Below are positions 5,839 to 61,509 of a stretch of DNA of 64,000 bases, piece after piece. The DNA is from Pedobacter psychrophilus (GTDB lineage Bacteria > Bacteroidota > Bacteroidia > Sphingobacteriales > Sphingobacteriaceae): positions 310,001 through 374,000 of the forward strand of contig NZ_LWHJ01000022.1 in the NCBI RefSeq assembly GCF_001652725.1. Direction: 5' to 3'. The translations under genes were made by a program, and so were the position numbers. Numbering within the stretch: position 1 is the stretch's first letter; the number at the start of each line of letters is the position of its first letter. Under the pieces are notes generated by a model that worked only from the letters and a program-made list of their open reading frames with translations, had not been told where the DNA came from and made no database searches.

Positions 5839-6216
5839 ATGAAAACCTCAATTATTCAGAATGGGATATCAATTTTTAACAAGGATTATCAAACTTTCAA
5901 GAATGGTAATTCTAAAGATTTGAATAATTTAATGACTAAAAATTTTATTGATAATCCAGAAAACAACAAAATCATTTCACAAATATTAGTGGATTTAAAC
6001 GATAAAGATGGAGGTGGACCAATTGCAAATCTAAAAACTTTAGAAGCGCATTTTATTGATGATTTTAAAAAAGGTAAAGTAAACTTCGCTTATGAATTAA
6101 AATTAGAATGGGGCTGTTCTGCAATTAAAAAGGATTTAATAAAACACGAAATTTTCGACTTTGAACTTGATAATGAAAAGCAGTTATTGTTTCTGTTTTT
6201 ATTTATTCCAAGCTAA
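5839..6216 (+). CDS. Uncharacterised 125-residue protein coupled to the GH13 gene
   Basis: I do not recognise this protein. It starts three bases after the alpha-glucosidase stop codon, so translation is probably coupled. No signal peptide or membrane segment is visible at the N-terminus. The protein is Asn/Lys/Asp-rich with a short hydrophobic beta-like C-terminus (LLFLFLFIP). The N-terminal half (residues 8-60) looks helical and the second half alternates like a small alpha/beta fold. Its 3' end overlaps the convergent methyltransferase gene by four bases. Codon use resembles its neighbours. Confidence 0.65.
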   Translation: MKTSIIQNGISIFNKDYQTFKNGNSKDLNNLMTKNFIDNPENNKIISQILVDLNDKDGGGPIANLKTLEAHFIDDFKKGKVNFAYELKLEWGCSAIKKDLIKHEIFDFELDNEKQLLFLFLFIPS

Positions 6217-9375: not shown

Positions 9376-11013
9376 ATGAATAGAAGAAAATTTATATTTA
9401 GTACTTCAGTTGCAGCAGCAGCCAGTACCGCTTTAGCCTCAACATCATTCTTATTACAGGCAAAGGAGAAAGTTAATCAAGCTTCTGATGATGTATTTGC
9501 AGATGATTTCGAACTCAATGAAATCACGATAGATCAACTACAAGAAAAAATGGAGAAAGGTAAACTGACATCCAAAACCATTACCGAGATGTATTTAAAA
9601 AGGATTGCCAAAATGGATAAAAAAGGACCTTTATTAAATGCGGTAATAGAACTTAATCCAGATGCCATAAAAATTGCCAAACAAATGGATGATGAGCGTA
9701 AAAACGGTAAAATAAGAAGTAGAATGCATGGAATTCCTGTCTTGATAAAAGATAATATTGATACAGGAGATAAGATGATGACAACTGCTGGCGCAACAGC
9801 ATTGATAGGGAACATAGCTAGTAAAGATGCATTTATAGTTCAACAATTAAGAAATGCTGGTGCGGTTTTATTAGGTAAAACAAACTTAAGCGAATGGGCA
9901 AATTTTAAATCCTCAAAATCTACTAGCGGATGGAGCAGCCGTGGCGGGCAAACCAGAATGCCTTATATTTTAGATAGAAATCCATCAGGATCTAGTGCAG
10001 GAACGGGTGCCGCAGTTGCTGCAAATTTTTGTGTGATAGGTATTGGTACCGAAACAGATGGCTCTATAACTTCTCCATCTTCTATGAACGGATTAGTTGG
10101 GATTAAACCTACGGTAGGTTTATTAAGCAGAACAGGAATTATCCCTATTTCTGCAACACAAGATACTGCCGGACCAATGGGGCGAACCGTTAAAGATGCT
10201 GCTATTTTTTTAGGTGTTTTAGCAGGGTTAGATGCCAACGACCCAGTAACTTTAGAAAGTAAAGGAAAAGCAAAAACAGATTATACTTTGGGATTATCTC
10301 TTGAAGGTTTAAAAGGGAAAAGAATTGGTGTAGAAAAATCTTTTTTTAGACGTGGGAATCAAGAAGTGATTAACATTTTTAAAGATTCAATTCAAATTTT
10401 AAAAGATAAAGGAGCAATAATTATTGAAGTTGAATTATTGAAAAAAATTAATGAAGGTGGCGATAATGGAGAATTTGAAGTTTTACAATATGAGTTTAAA
10501 GATGGCTTGAACAAATACCTGGCAACTGCTAATACAAAAGTAAAAACCCTGGCAGAAGTAATTTCCTTTAACAAAGCCAACGAAAAAACTGTAATGCCTT
10601 ACTTTAAACAAGAAACCTTAGAAAGTAGCAATGCAAAAGAAGACTTAAGTTCTAAACCTTATAAAGATGCTTTAATAAAATCCACAAGCTCAAGAAAGAT
10701 CATTAGCAGTATATTAAAGGATAGCCAATTGGATGCAATCTGCGGTATTTCTAATGGGCCAGCTGCATGTATTGACAATATTAATGGTGATTACGGCACT
10801 GGCTTTTCTTTTTCTGGCCCTGCAGCCACAGCCGGTTACCCTCATATCACTTTACCAATGGGCATGCTGCATCAATTGCCAATAGGAATTTCATTTATTG
10901 CAAATGCTTATCAAGAAGCAGAATTAATTAAGATTACCTATGCTTTTGAACAAGCAACAAAAATGAGAAAAGCACCAAAATTTATTCCTACAGCTATTCA
11001 AAGCGTAGTATAA
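9376..11013 (+). CDS. Amidase-signature hydrolase exported by Tat
   Basis: A 545-residue amidase-signature enzyme. The N-terminus MNRRKFIFSTSVAAAASTA is a twin-arginine signal (NRRKFI, then a hydrophobic stretch), so the folded protein is probably exported to the periplasm. The Ser-cisSer-Lys triad can be placed: K125 in PVLIKDN, cis-Ser S206 in NPSGSSAGTG, and nucleophile S230 in ETDGSITSPSS. The signature GGSS is here PSGSS. The C-terminal half (GISNGPAACIDN, PHITLPMG, PIGISF) is typical of the peptide-amidase / Glu-amidotransferase-A-like group. Substrates could be peptide amides or other carboxamides; no subunits B or C of GatCAB are nearby, so it is not a tRNA amidotransferase. Standalone gene. 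Confidence 0.88.
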   Translation: MNRRKFIFSTSVAAAASTALASTSFLLQAKEKVNQASDDVFADDFELNEITIDQLQEKMEKGKLTSKTITEMYLKRIAKMDKKGPLLNAVIELNPDAIKIAKQMDDERKNGKIRSRMHGIPVLIKDNIDTGDKMMTTAGATALIGNIASKDAFIVQQLRNAGAVLLGKTNLSEWANFKSSKSTSGWSSRGGQTRMPYILDRNPSGSSAGTGAAVAANFCVIGIGTETDGSITSPSSMNGLVGIKPTVGLLSRTGIIPISATQDTAGPMGRTVKDAAIFLGVLAGLDANDPVTLESKGKAKTDYTLGLSLEGLKGKRIGVEKSFFRRGNQEVINIFKDSIQILKDKGAIIIEVELLKKINEGGDNGEFEVLQYEFKDGLNKYLATANTKVKTLAEVISFNKANEKTVMPYFKQETLESSNAKEDLSSKPYKDALIKSTSSRKIISSILKDSQLDAICGISNGPAACIDNINGDYGTGFSFSGPAATAGYPHITLPMGMLHQLPIGISFIANAYQEAELIKITYAFEQATKMRKAPKFIPTAIQSVV

Positions 11014-56911: not shown

Positions 56912-57808
56912 TTAGGCTATAGAAAGGTTAAGCATGTTAACTTGATCTATAAATTCTTGAATATTTTTTATGTACATCGTATTTGGCTTGTCTAAAAGTT
57001 GATTGATAGCAATTTGAGCTCCTGCTAAGATCAAACTTATATTTCCAATATTTTCCCTGATTTTGGATATTGCATCTTCTATTTTCATTTCAGAATTTGC
57101 AATTGTAAGAACAGTAAAAACAAAATCAGGTTCGTAATAATTAACAACTTCGCTTAAACTTTCAAAAGGTAAATCTTGCCCAAGATATAGTGTAAAATGC
57201 CCTTTGCTTTTAAGTATAAATTGTGCGAAAAGTAGTCCAATTTCATGATGTTCATGAGGAGGTAAAAACAATATAAATCGTTTAGAATTTTTGTTTTTTA
57301 GCCCATTTAATTTAAAGGTATCGTGGATTAGCTTTTGCTCTATTTTTTGTGTTGCAAAATGTTCATGAGCAGCATTTATGCTACCCACTTGCCACATAAA
57401 GCCTACTTTTCTCATAAAAGGGAACACTATTTCGCATATTGCTTTTTCCATTCCTAAATCAGAGACACAGCCATTTAAAACTTCGTCAAATTCCTCATCA
57501 TCCATTTTTAACATGGCGTTTGATAGCATTTGTACCTGTACATTTATATTATAATGATCTTCCTGGAGTTTTTTAACCAATTGATTAATTTCTAAAACTT
57601 CCATTTGGGAAATTTTACTAATCTTATATCCGTTTTCATTTAAAACAGCAATGTTTAGGAATGTACATAAGTCTTGATCATCATAATAGCGAATGTTGGT
57701 TTCAGTTCGCTTTGGAGTGCAAAAGTTATATCGCTGCTCCCAAATTCTTATGGTATGTGCTTTGATGCCTGTTAAATTTTCAATATCACTTATAGAGAAT
57801 TTCCGCAC
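56912..57808 (-). CDS. MerR-type regulator with cobalamin-binding domain (CarH/LitR-like photoreceptor)
   Basis: A 298-residue repressor candidate. Residues 1-70 are a MerR winged helix (FSISDIENLTGIKAHTIRIWEQRY). Residues ~85-165 form the helical cap with the Wx9EH signature (W139, E149, H150), and residues 180-295 the Rossmann cobalamin domain with ExHxxG (E186-H188-G191). In T. thermophilus CarH the lower axial ligand is the matching His, and light breaks the Co-C bond of adenosylcobalamin to release DNA. Here the residue after W139 is Gln, whereas the T. thermophilus protein has His132 there, which in light becomes the second cobalt ligand; the photocycle may therefore differ. It is next to two photolyase-family genes. 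A 19-bp inverted repeat overlaps its -7 element. Confidence 0.9.
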   Translation of the reverse strand: MRKFSISDIENLTGIKAHTIRIWEQRYNFCTPKRTETNIRYYDDQDLCTFLNIAVLNENGYKISKISQMEVLEINQLVKKLQEDHYNINVQVQMLSNAMLKMDDEEFDEVLNGCVSDLGMEKAICEIVFPFMRKVGFMWQVGSINAAHEHFATQKIEQKLIHDTFKLNGLKNKNSKRFILFLPPHEHHEIGLLFAQFILKSKGHFTLYLGQDLPFESLSEVVNYYEPDFVFTVLTIANSEMKIEDAISKIRENIGNISLILAGAQIAINQLLDKPNTMYIKNIQEFIDQVNMLNLSIA

Positions 57809-57849
57809 TTTTATGTTCTTTTAAATGTATTGAATTTAGATTGTATGTA

Positions 57850-57868
57850 TTGTTAACAAAATTAACAA
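57850..57868 (-). promoter_or_regulatory. Inverted repeat over the -7 element of the CarH-like gene
   Basis: TTGTTAA-CAAAA-TTAACAA is a perfect 7-bp dyad with a 5-base spacer. Its minus-strand centre contains TAATTTTG, a full TAnnTTTG -7 match, giving a predicted leader of about 40-45 bases to the ATG at 57808. Overlap of dyad and -7 box suggests autorepression. Confidence 0.5.
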
Positions 57869-57882
57869 TGCATTGTTTATTA

Positions 57883-59421
57883 TTATAACGAGGGTAAATT
57901 TGATAAATAAATATCGGATTGTTTTAAGATTGCATCTATTTCCGATTTTTCCATTTTATCTATTAAACGATACATCATCCCAATCCTTGGGTTTTTCTTT
58001 AATTGATCTTCATGTTTAATGTAAAAATTCCAGTAAAGGCTGTTAAAAGGGCAGGCATTTTCTCCATGGCGTTTATCCTTATCGTAACTGCAACCTTTGC
58101 AATAATTACTCATTTTATTGATATAATTTGCGGAGGCAACGTATGGTTTAGAACCTATTAATCCCCCATCTGCAAACTGACTCATTCCTCTGGTGTTTGT
58201 AATCTGAACCCACTCAACTGCATCAGCATATACACCTAAATACCAATTATCTACTTCATCAGGTTTTGCTCCAATTAATAAGGCAAAATTCCCGATTACC
58301 ATTAAACGTTGAATATGATGTGCATAAGAATGATCTAGAGAGTTATTTATACAATATTTTAAGCAATTCATTTTTACTTTACCATCCCAAAACCATGGTG
58401 GTAAATCCCTATCATTATTTAAATAATTTTTTGTTGCAAAATCAGGCATTTGATCCCAATAAATCCCTCGCATATATTCTCGCCAACCAATTACCTGTCT
58501 AACAAAACCCTCCACTTGTGCTATATCAATCTCTTCTTTATTTGCTTGCCAAGTATTTATAACCTGTTCTACAACCTCTTTTGGTGAGATCATTTTTAGA
58601 TTTAAAGAAAACGAAAGACAAGAATGAAATAAGGTATGATGTTCCTTTAGCATGGCATCTTCATACCTGCCAAAGTTTGGAAGTAGCTCTTCACAAAAGT
58701 AATATAGTATTTCTAAGGCTTCTTTTCTTGATGTTGGATACGGAAATTCTTTTGGTTTTATATTTCCAAAATATTGGACTTTTTTATCATTCAATAATTT
58801 TACAATTTCTGATACTTCTTTTTTAAATAATAGGGGAGCTTTAAGCGGATATTTACCATCGTATTTTTTTCTGTTCTCATGATCAAAATTCCATTTATCG
58901 CCGAAAGGTTCTAAATTTTTGTTTACTAAAATATGATGTTTCTTTCTCATATCCCGGTAAAAAGTTTCCATTAAATATTGCTTTTTACCACTAAAAAAAT
59001 CCTTTACATCTTCTCGGTTAGTATAGAAATGTTCAGTATCGATAACAGAATATCTGATTTCTAACTCTTTACAAATCTCTTTTAGCTGTTCATCTAATCG
59101 ATATTCATCAGGTAATTGATATTCAAATTTTTGTGCCGAAAGTTTTTTGATTTCTTGTTGGATATTTTCTTTAAAGCTTTGAAGGTTGCTTTTATCATCT
59201 AATTTGTAATAAATTATTTGATGATCTTCTTTTTTAAGTTCTTCAGCAAAGTTTCTCATCGCCATAAAAAAGCCGACAATCTTTTGGATGTGATGCTTCA
59301 CGTAAGATTGCTCTTGTATCACTTCCATGATAATATAAATAATATCATCATCTTTTTTACTGAACCAAGAATGTTGGTGACTAAGTTGATCGCCGAGAAT
59401 AAGTCGGAGTGTTTTTGCCAT
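57883..59421 (-). CDS. phrB: Iron-sulfur (6-4) photolyase of the PhrB / FeS-BCP family
   Basis: A 512-residue deoxyribodipyrimidine photolyase-related protein. The N-terminus LRLILGDQLSHQHSWF is the family start and GWREYMRGIYW is in the FAD/DNA domain. The four [4Fe-4S] cysteines are at C353, C441, C444 and C457, each exactly three residues on from the Agrobacterium PhrB ligands (350, 438, 441, 454), so the Fe-S cluster is very likely retained. The family repairs (6-4) photoproducts with FAD and a ribolumazine antenna. It lies between a CarH-like regulator and a DASH cryptochrome on the same strand. Length is close to PhrB (507). Confidence 0.95.
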   Translation of the reverse strand: MAKTLRLILGDQLSHQHSWFSKKDDDIIYIIMEVIQEQSYVKHHIQKIVGFFMAMRNFAEELKKEDHQIIYYKLDDKSNLQSFKENIQQEIKKLSAQKFEYQLPDEYRLDEQLKEICKELEIRYSVIDTEHFYTNREDVKDFFSGKKQYLMETFYRDMRKKHHILVNKNLEPFGDKWNFDHENRKKYDGKYPLKAPLLFKKEVSEIVKLLNDKKVQYFGNIKPKEFPYPTSRKEALEILYYFCEELLPNFGRYEDAMLKEHHTLFHSCLSFSLNLKMISPKEVVEQVINTWQANKEEIDIAQVEGFVRQVIGWREYMRGIYWDQMPDFATKNYLNNDRDLPPWFWDGKVKMNCLKYCINNSLDHSYAHHIQRLMVIGNFALLIGAKPDEVDNWYLGVYADAVEWVQITNTRGMSQFADGGLIGSKPYVASANYINKMSNYCKGCSYDKDKRHGENACPFNSLYWNFYIKHEDQLKKNPRIGMMYRLIDKMEKSEIDAILKQSDIYLSNLPSL

Positions 59422-59498
59422 TTCTTATAAACAGTAAAAGATAGAATTCTGTTTTTATAATTTAGGCGATGAATAAATCGTATTAATGAGTAAAGGAA

Positions 59499-60800
59499 TT
59501 ACCCCTCTAACCAAAGCTTTCTATATTCTCCTTTCGGATCATAATCATTAGCTTGTTTTTCTATATTAAAATGGCGGTTTTCACGAGGATCGTTACCAAC
59601 GCCTGCAACATAAGACCAATTTCCCCAATTACTTGCAGGGTTATAATCAATCAGTTTTTCTTCAAAATAAGCAGCGCCCCAGGTCCAATTTACTTTTAAA
59701 TCTTTTACTAAGTATGAAGCTACATTCTGACGACCACGGTTGCTCATAAAGCCAGTTAAATTAAGCTCTTTCATGTTAGCATCAATAAACGGAACGCCAG
59801 TTTTTGCATTTTTCCATTTCTCAAAAAGTTCTTCTTGATTTTCGGCATGTTCGTTATCTTTACCTTTAAAACCACCTTCCATAAAAAATTGGGTGCCGTG
59901 TTTCTTAAACATAAAGCGAAAATAATCTCGCCAAAGCAATTCAAAAATTAGCCAATAAGTGCTGTCGTTTGCGCCACGTTCTTGCTCATATTTTTTTATT
60001 TCCCAATAAATTTCTCTCGGAGAAAGGCAACCTGCAGAAAGCCATGGAGAAAGTTTAGAACTATAATCGGCACCTATTAAGCCATTACGGGTTTTTTTAT
60101 ATGTTTTCAACAAATCTGTATCCCATAAATAGTATTTTAATCTTGCTAACCCTTCAGTTTCTCCACCTTTAAAATCAATTGCCTTACGAATATCAATTTT
60201 CTCATATTCTACACCTAAATCTTTTAAAGAAGGTAATATTGATTGTTCTAAATTAAGTGGGATATCAATTTTTGTAGGAGTTTCAAAAGATGAGCGGATT
60301 ACACCTTCACGTTCGGCTTTTTTACGGAAAGTGGTAAATACATCTGGAATATCTTTGATAGGAAATGGCAAATCTTCTTTATGGTACATGGTATGACCAA
60401 TAAAGTGTTTTAAGTTGATTTGTTTTTTCCAAAGGACATCTTCAACTTTAGAGGAAATATCTGTTTCTTCGGAAGCAACTTCTCGATGGTGATAAACCTC
60501 GTTAACGTTATATTTTTCGCAAATTTGAGGAAGAATTTCTTCAGGATGGCCTTGGGTAACCAATAAATCTCCACCTAATTTCTGTAATGATTTTTTTAAA
60601 TCAGCAACGCTCTCTAAAATAAACTGTGCTCTAAAACTTCCTGTTTTTTGAGTTTTAAAAATAGTCTCACTAAAATAGCGAGGATCGAAAATAAATACTG
60701 GTAAAATGGTTGTTGCTTTTTGAGTAGCTTCTAATAATATTTCATTATCATGAACCCGTAAATCGTTTCTAAACCAAACCAATATTATTTTTTCACTCAT
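59499..60800 (-). CDS. cry: Cryptochrome DASH
   Basis: A 433-residue photolyase/cryptochrome-family flavoprotein. It starts IILVWFRNDLRVHDNEIL and continues IFDPRYF, FRAQFILESVADLKKSL, VYHHREVASEETD, all typical of the DASH group. The FAD domain has GCLSPREIYWEI, LLWRDYFRFMF, GFMSNRGRQNVASYL, VNWTWGAAYFEEKLIDYNPASNWGNW and PRENRHFNIEKQANDYDP. DASH proteins repair cyclobutane dimers in single-stranded DNA and may signal. It is 36 bases after the DUF2256 microgene and 77 before phrB in one minus-strand series. Confidence 0.95.
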   Translation of the reverse strand: MSEKIILVWFRNDLRVHDNEILLEATQKATTILPVFIFDPRYFSETIFKTQKTGSFRAQFILESVADLKKSLQKLGGDLLVTQGHPEEILPQICEKYNVNEVYHHREVASEETDISSKVEDVLWKKQINLKHFIGHTMYHKEDLPFPIKDIPDVFTTFRKKAEREGVIRSSFETPTKIDIPLNLEQSILPSLKDLGVEYEKIDIRKAIDFKGGETEGLARLKYYLWDTDLLKTYKKTRNGLIGADYSSKLSPWLSAGCLSPREIYWEIKKYEQERGANDSTYWLIFELLWRDYFRFMFKKHGTQFFMEGGFKGKDNEHAENQEELFEKWKNAKTGVPFIDANMKELNLTGFMSNRGRQNVASYLVKDLKVNWTWGAAYFEEKLIDYNPASNWGNWSYVAGVGNDPRENRHFNIEKQANDYDPKGEYRKLWLEG

Positions 60801-60836
60801 TTTAAAATCCTCAATTTCTTTTTACAATATTGCTCA

Positions 60837-60989
60837 TTATTTAATGTTTCGGCAATTATTTGAACAATATTTTACGTCGTCCCAACATTTTTCCCATTTT
60901 TTACGCCAAGCGAAAGGTTTTTTACAAGTGATACAAATTTTTTGTGGGAGATTATTCTTTTCAATTATTTTCCCGTTTTTATTGATCAT
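60837..60989 (-). CDS. DUF2256 zinc-ribbon-like protein, 50 residues
   Basis: ATG at 60989, TAA at 60837-60839. The protein has C19-x2-C22 and C42-x3-C46 (plus C35) around the family core [13 protein letters not shown] and [10 protein letters not shown], the diagnostic pattern of DUF2256. Four cysteines suggest one zinc ion. It is very basic, which could fit nucleic-acid or acidic-protein binding. It heads the cryptochrome/photolyase operon. Relatives are, to my knowledge, frequently neighbours of or fused to cryptochrome genes. Function unknown. The gene is short enough to be missed by usual length cut-offs. Confidence 0.9.
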
Positions 60990-60997
60990 GAGTTGAA

Positions 60998-61018
60998 ATT
61001 TATCAATTTGCGATAAAT
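60998..61018. promoter_or_regulatory. Inverted repeat upstream of the DUF2256-cry operon
   Basis: ATTTATC-AATTTGC-GATAAAT, perfect 7-bp arms with a 7-base spacer, starts nine bases upstream of the DUF2256 ATG. It differs from the dyad near the regulator gene and may be an independent operator or chance in AT-rich DNA. Confidence 0.3.
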
Positions 61019-61024
61019 AGGTTT

Positions 61025-61099
61025 TGCGTTAGGGATAGCAGCGATATCCTTTTTTAATTTTCATAAAAAAGATTTAGCGGATAGCCCGTTAAAACGCAC
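61025..61099 (-). repeat. Interspersed intergenic hairpin repeat, copy 5 (short variant)
   Basis: Minus strand: starts GTGCGTTTTAACGGGC and ends CCCTAACGCA, 75 bp. The GGGCTATCCGC block replaces the palindrome of copies 1-3, and the inner A/T hairpin is shorter (ATCTTTTTTATG / AAAAAAGGAT). It lies in the shared gap between the DUF2256-cry operon and the divergent TIGR03643 gene, near both promoters. Confidence 0.75.
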
Positions 61100-61221
61100 A
61101 AATAAATATTTTTATAACAACAATTTTTAATAAACTACATTAATTAATAAAAATTTAAATTAATAGTATTTATCAAACCAACAATTATTAAACAATAAGC
61201 ATTGAAAGATGTTTTGAAAGG

Positions 61222-61509
61222 ATGAAAAAGCAGTTTCAGAATTTAACAGAAAGGGAAACCGACAGGATTATTGAGATGGCTTGGGAGGACCGTACACCTT
61301 TTGAAGTGATAGAATTGCAATTTGGTTTAGCTGAGCAGGATGTGATAAAGCTAATGCGAAGGGAATTAAAACCTAGTAGTTGGCGACTTTGGAGGGAAAG
61401 AGCACATCAAATTTCTCACAAACATTTAAAAAAGAGAAGTGAAGATATAGATCGTTTTAAATGTAATTTACAAAGGCAAATTACGATGAATAAAATCTCT
61501 AAAAGATAA
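61222..61509 (+). CDS. TIGR03643 / DUF2805 family protein
   Basis: A 95-residue basic protein: TERETDRIIEMAWEDRTPFEVIELQFGL is a helix-turn-helix-like start, followed by AEQDVIKLMRRELKPSSWRLWRERAHQISHKH, the family signature. It resembles a small sigma-region-4- or HTH-like DNA-binding fold, but no activity is established. It is divergent from the DUF2256-cry-phrB cluster across a repeat-bearing gap, and to my knowledge this family often occurs near photolyase genes. It converges with rluF, five bases apart at the 3' ends. Confidence 0.88.
   Translation: MKKQFQNLTERETDRIIEMAWEDRTPFEVIELQFGLAEQDVIKLMRRELKPSSWRLWRERAHQISHKHLKKRSEDIDRFKCNLQRQITMNKISKR

Follow-up and report, generated by a model that had tools for sequence, protein, structure and literature searches.

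A cluster of five genes in Pedobacter psychrophilus raises the question of what a CarH-like regulator controls when its neighbors are photolyase genes, and of what two small protein families contribute in their company. The cluster occupies positions 56912-61509 of the stretch of DNA analyzed (64,000 nucleotides, positions 310,001 to 374,000 of contig NZ_LWHJ01000022.1; hereafter “the window”). Genes for DUF2256, a DASH-family cryptochrome/photolyase, a photolyase of the FeS-BCP/CryPro family and the regulator follow one another in that order on the minus strand, and a DUF2805/TIGR03643 gene is divergent on the plus strand. This is the arrangement of four co-oriented genes plus a divergent TIGR03643 gene that had been reported in a preliminary description made from the sequence alone, and all five genes were found where it placed them. 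Its gene identities are borne out by family profile scores (Pfam, TIGR02765 and TIGR03643), which lie so well above the cut-offs that the assignments are not due to chance.

We give a probability of roughly 0.58 to the reading that this cluster is a light-inducible photorepair operon under its CarH-like regulator. DUF2256, DASH, the FeS-BCP photolyase and the regulator would then form one transcription unit, with DUF2805 transcribed divergently from a common control region. In the dark, we infer, the regulator, probably bound to adenosylcobalamin, would bind the 23-bp inverted repeat AACAW-N13-WTGTT and keep two promoters repressed, the internal one of its own gene and the divergent one of DUF2256/DUF2805. 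Light would break the Co-C bond and relieve repression, so that the repair enzymes would rise with exposure to UV and blue light, and DUF2256 (a small zinc finger) and DUF2805 (a helix-turn-helix [HTH]-like protein) would assist the Fe-S photolyase module as accessory factors. Kinship, gene position and the shared inverted repeat make this light-release model plausible.

A CarH-like regulator at the end of the operon

The regulator gene (56912-57808, minus strand; 298 aa, GTG start) is the last of the operon, downstream of the photolyases, and is adjoined by sucA. Its product is a CarH/LitR-like MerR protein with a B12-binding region, in which a MerR HTH domain (PF13411, 8.6e-16) and a B12 cap domain (PF02607, 4.5e-9) both score above cut-off. 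It matches CarH of Thermus thermophilus (TtCarH; structures 3whp and 5c8d) with E ~1e-18, and the alignment with Thermus CarH spans residues 4-220. PF02310 was not called in this protein by the Pfam scan, though the chain extends beyond the cap domain. No second MerR-B12 regulator was found in the genome, where the one other B12 cap-domain match lies in a 1293-aa frame that is probably MetH.

Residues W139, Q140 and E149-H150 form Wx9EH, the adenosyl cap motif, and E186xH188xxG forms ExHxxG, in agreement with the preliminary description. Together with the MerR and cap domains and a light-protective context, these motifs are the likeness to TtCarH and to the CarH family at large. Wx9EH and ExHx2Gx41SxV/Tx22-27GG are given as the CarH signatures in PMC8156234. 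Wx9EH is kept in 59 of the 61 Bacteroidota regulators that we mapped. These derive from a search in which 34 of 148 Bacteroidota genomes and 33 of 60 relatives carried the regulator, with 70 distinct matches; 61 of these were mapped (60 neighborhoods plus the window), and the nine unmapped ones are either weaker matches (G033 x1, G062 x2, G051, G093, G124) or contig fragments (G157, G174 x2). Numbers beginning with G and L denote the genomes and loci of our survey.

The residue that follows the key Trp is Gln in the window, as the preliminary description had pointed out for the position held by His in the Thermus protein. The substitution is real but usual within the Bacteroidota subfamily: Gln is present in 43 of 61 regulators (17/17 in the same genus and 26/44 in others), which rules it out as a special trait of this locus. 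In a tally of 62 rows (the 61 Bacteroidota regulators and TtCarH), an equivalent of His132 is missing from 60 of the 61, and His occurs only in the L141 row and in TtCarH itself.

Placement of the regulator on a photorepair module

A genome-neighborhood survey had been proposed in the preliminary description. Among the 17 mapped genomes of the same genus, a photolyase gene directly precedes the regulator in 13 (FeS-BCP in 11, DASH in two), and four have other neighbors; one further genome of the genus lacks the regulator. Outside the genus, carotenoid genes lie beside 28 of 44 regulators and the remaining 16 are in other settings (carotenoid gene names were assigned by recognition, with PF00494 used for the CrtB of the window's own genome). 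In a tree, the regulators of the genus and those of two sisters from the same family form one supported set (96/99; bootstrap not fully settled). Because the genus is photolyase-linked in 13 of 17 cases and the other regulators are carotenoid-linked in 28 of 44, a carotenoid-type regulator has been placed on the photorepair module, and the simplest reading is that this happened once within this family. The regulator of both sisters (L105, L106) stands head-to-head with a TetR-ABC1 gene pair, a pair also found within the module at L250-L252. An independent case is L267, from the class of Marinobacter, where genes for a regulator with MerR and two-domain B12 regions, DUF2256 and FeS-BCP stand in a row.

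The same neighborhoods could instead reflect proximity without regulation, the regulator having hitchhiked downstream of the photolyases and controlling carotenoid genes in trans. Carotenoid linkage is the commonest context (28/61), four members of the genus keep the regulator with no adjoining photolyase, and the crtI and crtB genes of the window's own genome are unlinked to the cluster and have no regulator beside them. We nevertheless regard this account as improbable, given the photolyase linkage in 13 of 17 genus members and an inverted repeat that marks both promoters of the cluster and is missing from the genome's own crtI-crtB.

An inverted repeat of fixed spacing

The 74-bp gap between photolyase and regulator (57809-57882, minus strand) contains TAnnTTTG, which we take to be the Bacteroidota -7 element, and the dyad AACAA-N13-TTGTT at 57855-57877, and is therefore a candidate for an internal, autoregulated promoter. 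The divergent promoter region (60990-61221) contains the related dyad AACAT-N13-TTGTT at 61191-61213. Within the genus, AACAW-N13-TTGTT precedes 12 of 17 regulators and is present in 7 of 7 DUF2256-DUF2805 regions (the adjoining 30 bp of each gene included) and in 1 of 103 other upstream regions; spacings of 8-12 and 14-16 yield 0 or 1 site in the regulator and divergent set and 0-2 in the other upstream regions. All 12 dyad-bearing regulators of the genus are photolyase-linked, and none of the four unlinked ones has the dyad. The thirteenth photolyase-linked regulator (L104) has a near form of it with a longer gap. The PTPS gene of two genus loci (L096, L097) also carries the dyad.

Because the pentamers were picked by eye in genus sequences, which lessens the force of these counts, the decisive test of the dyad is outside the genus. 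Across 105 Bacteroidota loci with 259 module genes, each searched up to 150 bp upstream, AACAW-N13-WTGTT occurs at 15 sites, compared to 0-3 AACAW/WTGTT sites for any one of the 14 alternative spacings between 6 and 20. For the strict form AACAA-N13-TTGTT there are nine sites at spacing 13 vs. 0-2 at other spacings. In L210, L236 and L248 the dyad lies in the DUF2256/DUF2805 gap, the same arrangement as in the window. Other families have it between flavin reductase and FeS-BCP genes (L213, 4416), between SDR and FeS-BCP genes (L231, 4479), at DUF2805 (L258, 5234), at FeS-BCP (L259, 9215) and at the start of a flavin reductase-DUF2256-DASH-FeS-BCP operon (L249, 5908). Genome G041 carries it at the regulator start (L115) and, on another contig, between DUF2256 and DUF2805 (L248), and in L105 it lies between the regulator and TetR genes (10718-10740). 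In other phyla it was found at none of 119 module genes (68 loci).

The module thus seems to have its own conserved operator-like dyad, and the light-release model is slightly strengthened because the fixed spacing of 13 recurs at both promoters and in other families. Two simpler candidates were set aside. A dyad with a loose gap of 11-13 was given up for the fixed gap of 13, and TAAACAA alone, although present in 31 of 61 regulator upstream regions vs. 66 of 383 other genes, occurs 34 times in the window, with 36 expected. Scans for sigma-70 promoters (27 vs. 23.1) and terminators (3 vs. 2.3) gave no clear excess.

Light release weighed against other modes of control

Several observations speak against strict CarH identity or against light release by this regulator. 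At the level of the protein, the second CarH signature (PMC8156234) retains its ExHxxG part in the window, but Ser is replaced by Thr and GG by AG; in its strict form it is present in 0 of 61 Bacteroidota regulators, and ExHxxG alone in 49. The window protein scores 106 bits on the NCBI TransRegCarH equivalog model, whose cut-off is 400 bits. The Gln regulator may differ in light release because most TtCarH H132A stays tetrameric in the light, according to PMC10442372.

At the level of DNA, the CarH operator consensus is a tandem 11-bp repeat, nnnnTnnACAn (PMC9304148), in place of which the window locus has an inverted repeat. A one-strand search for TnnACA pairs 11 or 22 bp apart found none in the seven divergent and 17 regulator upstream regions of the genus, a test that degenerate repeats could escape. 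The dyad is absent upstream of the genome's own crtI/crtB, second DASH and class I photolyase genes, and a scan of the window with the TTGTT form gave three matches at two sites, both in the cluster, vs. 1.3 expected. Outside the genus, 3 of 44 regulators have the dyad within 200 bp, and in a fourth (L115) it overlaps the called start. Where the regulator status of the genome is known, 4 of 20 module loci with the regulator have the dyad, as does 1 of 6 without it. Spacing 13 also stands out at non-module genes of these Bacteroidota loci (15 sites among 974 genes vs. 1-6 at other spacings), a count that includes some sites common to a module gene. Because spacing 13 is also raised at these other genes, the protein that binds the dyad may have a wider regulon.

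The module, moreover, is mostly found without this regulator. Among 133 loci (L150-L282; mostly DUF2256/photolyase loci, plus DUF2805 plasmid loci, three stretches of the window's own genome and one short CrtB match), the regulator is present in just two, L267 and Tenacibaculum L184, where it is split over two frames; this rules it out as a standing component of the module. Within the window's class, there is no significant association of the regulator with either DUF2256 or FeS-BCP. DUF2256 and the regulator lie within about 11 kb of each other in 5 of 21 Bacteroidota genomes that have both (that of the window, G126, G049, G068 and G142). Finally, the module often carries a TetR gene, so the dyad may belong to another protein: its binder may be the regulator, the TetR protein or some other factor.

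These observations would fit a regulator that senses cobalamin or redox state, not light, or that represses only itself, with the module run via the dyad by another factor such as TetR or DUF2805. The missing His132 equivalent and the behavior of H132A point in this direction, as do a TetR gene beside the regulator in five genus loci and in L250-L252 without the regulator, the L105 dyad between regulator and TetR genes, and dyads with no regulator nearby. On the other side stand the near-universal retention of Wx9EH and the dyad at the regulator's own promoter in 12 of 17 genus members; in addition, an earlier study cited in PMC10442372 had reported dissociation of H132A. We consider this alternative unlikely and continue to prefer light release.

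The strict CarH label is ruled out by the equivalog cut-off and the SxV/T...GG substitutions. The preliminary description's assignment thus survives as to the MerR and B12 cap architecture and Wx9EH and does not extend to CarH in the strict sense, in which the equivalog score, the second signature and the tandem operator would be expected. From its sequence, we call the regulator CarH-like and keep it apart from CarH proper.

DUF2256 and DUF2805 as companions of the Fe-S photolyase

The FeS-BCP/CryPro photolyase gene (57883-59421, minus strand; 512 aa; Pfam DPRP, PF04244, 5.9e-75) encodes a protein with full-length similarity to the solved members 7ykn/8a1h (E 1.8e-167) and PhrB (4dja, 3e-124). 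In the alignment, Cys353, Cys441, Cys444 and Cys457 match cysteines of Agrobacterium PhrB, each offset by 3, as had been noted earlier; we take those PhrB cysteines to be the Fe-S ligands. The active-site His stretch YAHHIQR is also present. With the length, four cysteines and His stretch of these prokaryotic (6-4) photolyases, the enzyme is ordinary, and by homology it is a (6-4)-type photolyase. The DASH gene lies 77 bp upstream (59499-60800, minus strand; 433 aa); its product scores 582 bits on TIGR02765 (cut-off 317) and matches structures 6kii, 1np7 and 2j4d. A second DASH-like gene (L244:7355-8743) and a class I photolyase (L245:8007-9314) lie elsewhere in this genome.

DUF2256 (60837-60989, minus strand; 50 aa) precedes DASH with a gap of 36 bp. 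It is a basic, four-Cys protein and a predicted zinc finger (PF10013, 75 bits vs. a cut-off of 25), with CxxC...CxxxC formed by C19, C22, C42 and C46; the four Cys are invariant in the family, and Trp/Lys residues nearly so. Its AlphaFold2 model (pLDDT 79.8) has YacG (E 0.58) and an FCS finger (E 1.6) as nearest folds, neither significant, and the best match to solved-structure profiles is E 0.066. DUF2256 is assigned to the Pfam TRASH clan (PMC4047054). DUF2805 (61222-61509, plus strand; 95 aa) is basic, helical and HTH-like (PF10985, 116.6 bits vs. 22.5; TIGR03643, 109.8 vs. 66.55). Its model (pLDDT 76) gives weak, nonsignificant matches to sigma region 4 and other HTH proteins, and solved-structure profiles give none up to E 1; for both families, fold searches returned no match with E ≤ 0.001. 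No function for DUF2256 or DUF2805/TIGR03643 was found in the accessible literature (including PMC3597751 and PMC6856373), subscription papers being mostly outside the search. In a search for COG4338, PF10013 and PF10985, only the string PF10013 matched, in papers whose titles and abstracts indicate unrelated uses, mostly malaria locus tags.

What ties these small proteins to the photolyase is their distribution. Among the 148 Bacteroidota, DUF2256 is carried by 50 genomes, FeS-BCP by 49, DUF2805 by 43, DASH over cut-off by 35 and the regulator by 34. DUF2256 and FeS-BCP are common to 46 genomes, with four and three unshared (p 7.8e-30; the p-values are only a guide because genomes are not independent), and two of the four DUF2256 matches without FeS-BCP are weak. 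Counted by genus, 32 of 83 have both, with three and three unshared, and in the window's class 22 of 37 genomes have both, with two and zero unshared. DUF2256 is found with DASH more loosely (33/50 vs. 46/50 with FeS-BCP). DUF2805 is shared with FeS-BCP in 37 Bacteroidota genomes and with DUF2256 in 38. Within 3 kb, there are 21 DUF2256-FeS-BCP and 21 DUF2256-DASH pairs, every one on the same strand, and 12 DUF2256-DUF2805 pairs, eight of them on the same strand. At this distance, FeS-BCP or DASH accompanies 31 of the 50 DUF2256 genes of Bacteroidota, and the other 19 have neither nearby.

The association recurs in the class of Marinobacter. Of its 185 genomes, 25 carry DUF2256, 34 FeS-BCP and 19 both, with 12 pairs within 3 kb (11 on the same strand), which brings the close pairs of both groups to 33. 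DUF2805 is present in 11 of these genomes, 10 of which have FeS-BCP and 10 DUF2256, and is close to FeS-BCP only in G299 and G300. In a scan of DUF2256 loci over several phyla, the best 80 of 579 loci include 46 with some photolyase in the flanks (up to 6 kb), 37 with FeS-BCP and 16 with DUF2805; 34 have no photolyase in the fetched flanks. Among 50 of these 80 genomes, 38 have FeS-BCP somewhere; the 12 without it are nine metagenome drafts, judging by title, and three isolates (Psychrobacter, Falsirhodobacter and Runella). Five Pelagibacteraceae genomes of ~1 Mb have DUF2256 directly behind FeS-BCP. On plasmids, a photolyase adjoins DUF2256 in three of eight loci (Acinetobacter, Tritonibacter, Rhizobium) and not in five (Spirosoma, Pantoea, Agrobacterium, Sphingobium, Burkholderia); none of four DUF2805 plasmid loci has an annotated DUF2256, and one has a photolyase ~4 kb away. 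The FeS-BCP photolyase module therefore spans phyla, mostly without this regulator nearby. The preliminary description had cast DUF2256 and TIGR03643 as accessory factors: as companions they hold up by co-occurrence, by adjacency and across two phyla, and their accessory roles are what we infer from this.

A competing explanation is that DUF2256 and DUF2805 are merely co-regulated light or UV stress genes with no physical tie to the photolyase. In its favor, the 19 Bacteroidota DUF2256 genes mentioned above lie more than 3 kb from both FeS-BCP and DASH over cut-off, DUF2256 is missing from 15 of 34 gammaproteobacterial genomes with FeS-BCP, and Haloferax, in the control set, has FeS-BCP family matches without it, so DUF2256 is not indispensable. 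Other genes of a light type (FolE, PTPS, SDR, flavin reductase and ABC1) also share the neighborhood and the dyad. However, the presence of DUF2256 follows that of FeS-BCP even without linkage, and more closely than that of DASH, and the Pelagibacteraceae arrangement likewise argues for a closer tie. We judge simple co-regulation to be a serious contender, if somewhat short of an even chance. An indispensable maturation factor is ruled out for DUF2256 by the same 15 gammaproteobacterial genomes. A fusion of DUF2256 to a photolyase was sought among longer frames; none was present in those examined, which are mostly out-of-register extensions, and the frame in L264 presumably continues into a DUF3253-like stretch, judging by eye.

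Relation to known light-responsive systems

Control of photolyase genes by a regulator of this broad kind is partly known. In Pseudomonas, LitR regulators are reported to control photolyase operons, with light induction (PplR/PmlR, class II LitR; PMC9758184, PMC11417400), and the LitR regulon mixes photolyase, cryptochrome-like and folE genes (PMC9758184). A further likeness is that photolyase, cryptochrome-type and pterin genes accompany a MerR/LitR regulator: behind DUF2805, five of the 17 loci of the genus (L092, L094, L096, L097, L099) carry PTPS, FolE, SDR, flavin reductase and TetR genes, an array missing from the window. In contrast, Pseudomonas class II LitR is described as having only the helical B12 subdomain and LOV partners (PMC9758184), and phylum, gene set and regulator subfamily differ. 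The window protein does not follow that pattern, as it continues past the cap and aligns with TtCarH to residue 220. Bacteroidota carotenoid operons (e.g., L119, L120, L127-L133) are headed by a related Gln regulator but differ in having crtI-crtB-crtZ neighbors, elsewhere an ECF sigma gene, in some cases a class I photolyase, and mostly no dyad.

As far as our searches reach, the Bacteroidota arrangement, the Gln-type branch and the dyad are new, as is, above all, the tie of DUF2256 and DUF2805 to the Fe-S (6-4) photolyase. We speculate that DUF2256 could be a partner of Fe-S (6-4) photolyases (for example, guiding them to damage, or building or protecting the [4Fe-4S] cluster), that DUF2805 could be a sigma-4/HTH-like regulator of the module, and that the Gln-type CarH branch could release in light without bis-His ligation from a 23-bp inverted repeat of the MerR style rather than from tandem repeats; this combination is doubtful. 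According to a 2025 abstract (PMC12082625), it is unknown what the Fe-S cluster does in prokaryotic (6-4) photolyases; DUF2256, a 50-aa zinc-finger family that follows FeS-BCP through two phyla, gives direct access to this question. Regulators of the Gln type, as naturally occurring counterparts of H132A, can show whether release by light depends on bis-His ligation at all, and the dyad is a ready target for binding studies.

Additional observations in related loci

Further genes join the cluster in other Bacteroidota: one is photolyase-like, one is of the NAD-binding/DUF2867 kind and one belongs to a 141-aa family that has no match in Pfam. One such 141-aa protein (L252:8376-8798) lies between a photolyase-like gene and DUF2805. 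Similar-sized genes occur in L169, L173 and L203, a likeness judged by size and place only, and the family is possibly a third companion of the module. In a genome of the same family, a 398-aa protein between DUF2805 and FeS-BCP (L246:7911-9104) is recognized by Pfam only in its photolyase FAD-binding half. Psychrobacter has tandem DUF2256 genes, one of them diverged (L163:5589-5747 and 5992-6135), in a genome with no FeS-BCP match, and a lower-scoring DUF2805 paralogue (~75-84 bits) occurs in G021, G025, G057, G068, G084 and G142, of which G021 and G025 have no FeS-BCP.

Two further observations concern carotenoid loci. In L116 (G126:C3), DUF2256 stands head-to-head with the regulator of a carotenoid operon at a distance of ~0.3 kb, with no photolyase in the mapped stretch. 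In ten loci (L110, L111, L113, L114, L116, L117, L125, L126, L144 and L146), an ECF sigma-type gene, so called from a Pfam run on the L110 copy only, lies between the CarH-like regulator and crtI-crtB, and these loci possibly represent a light-to-ECF cascade.

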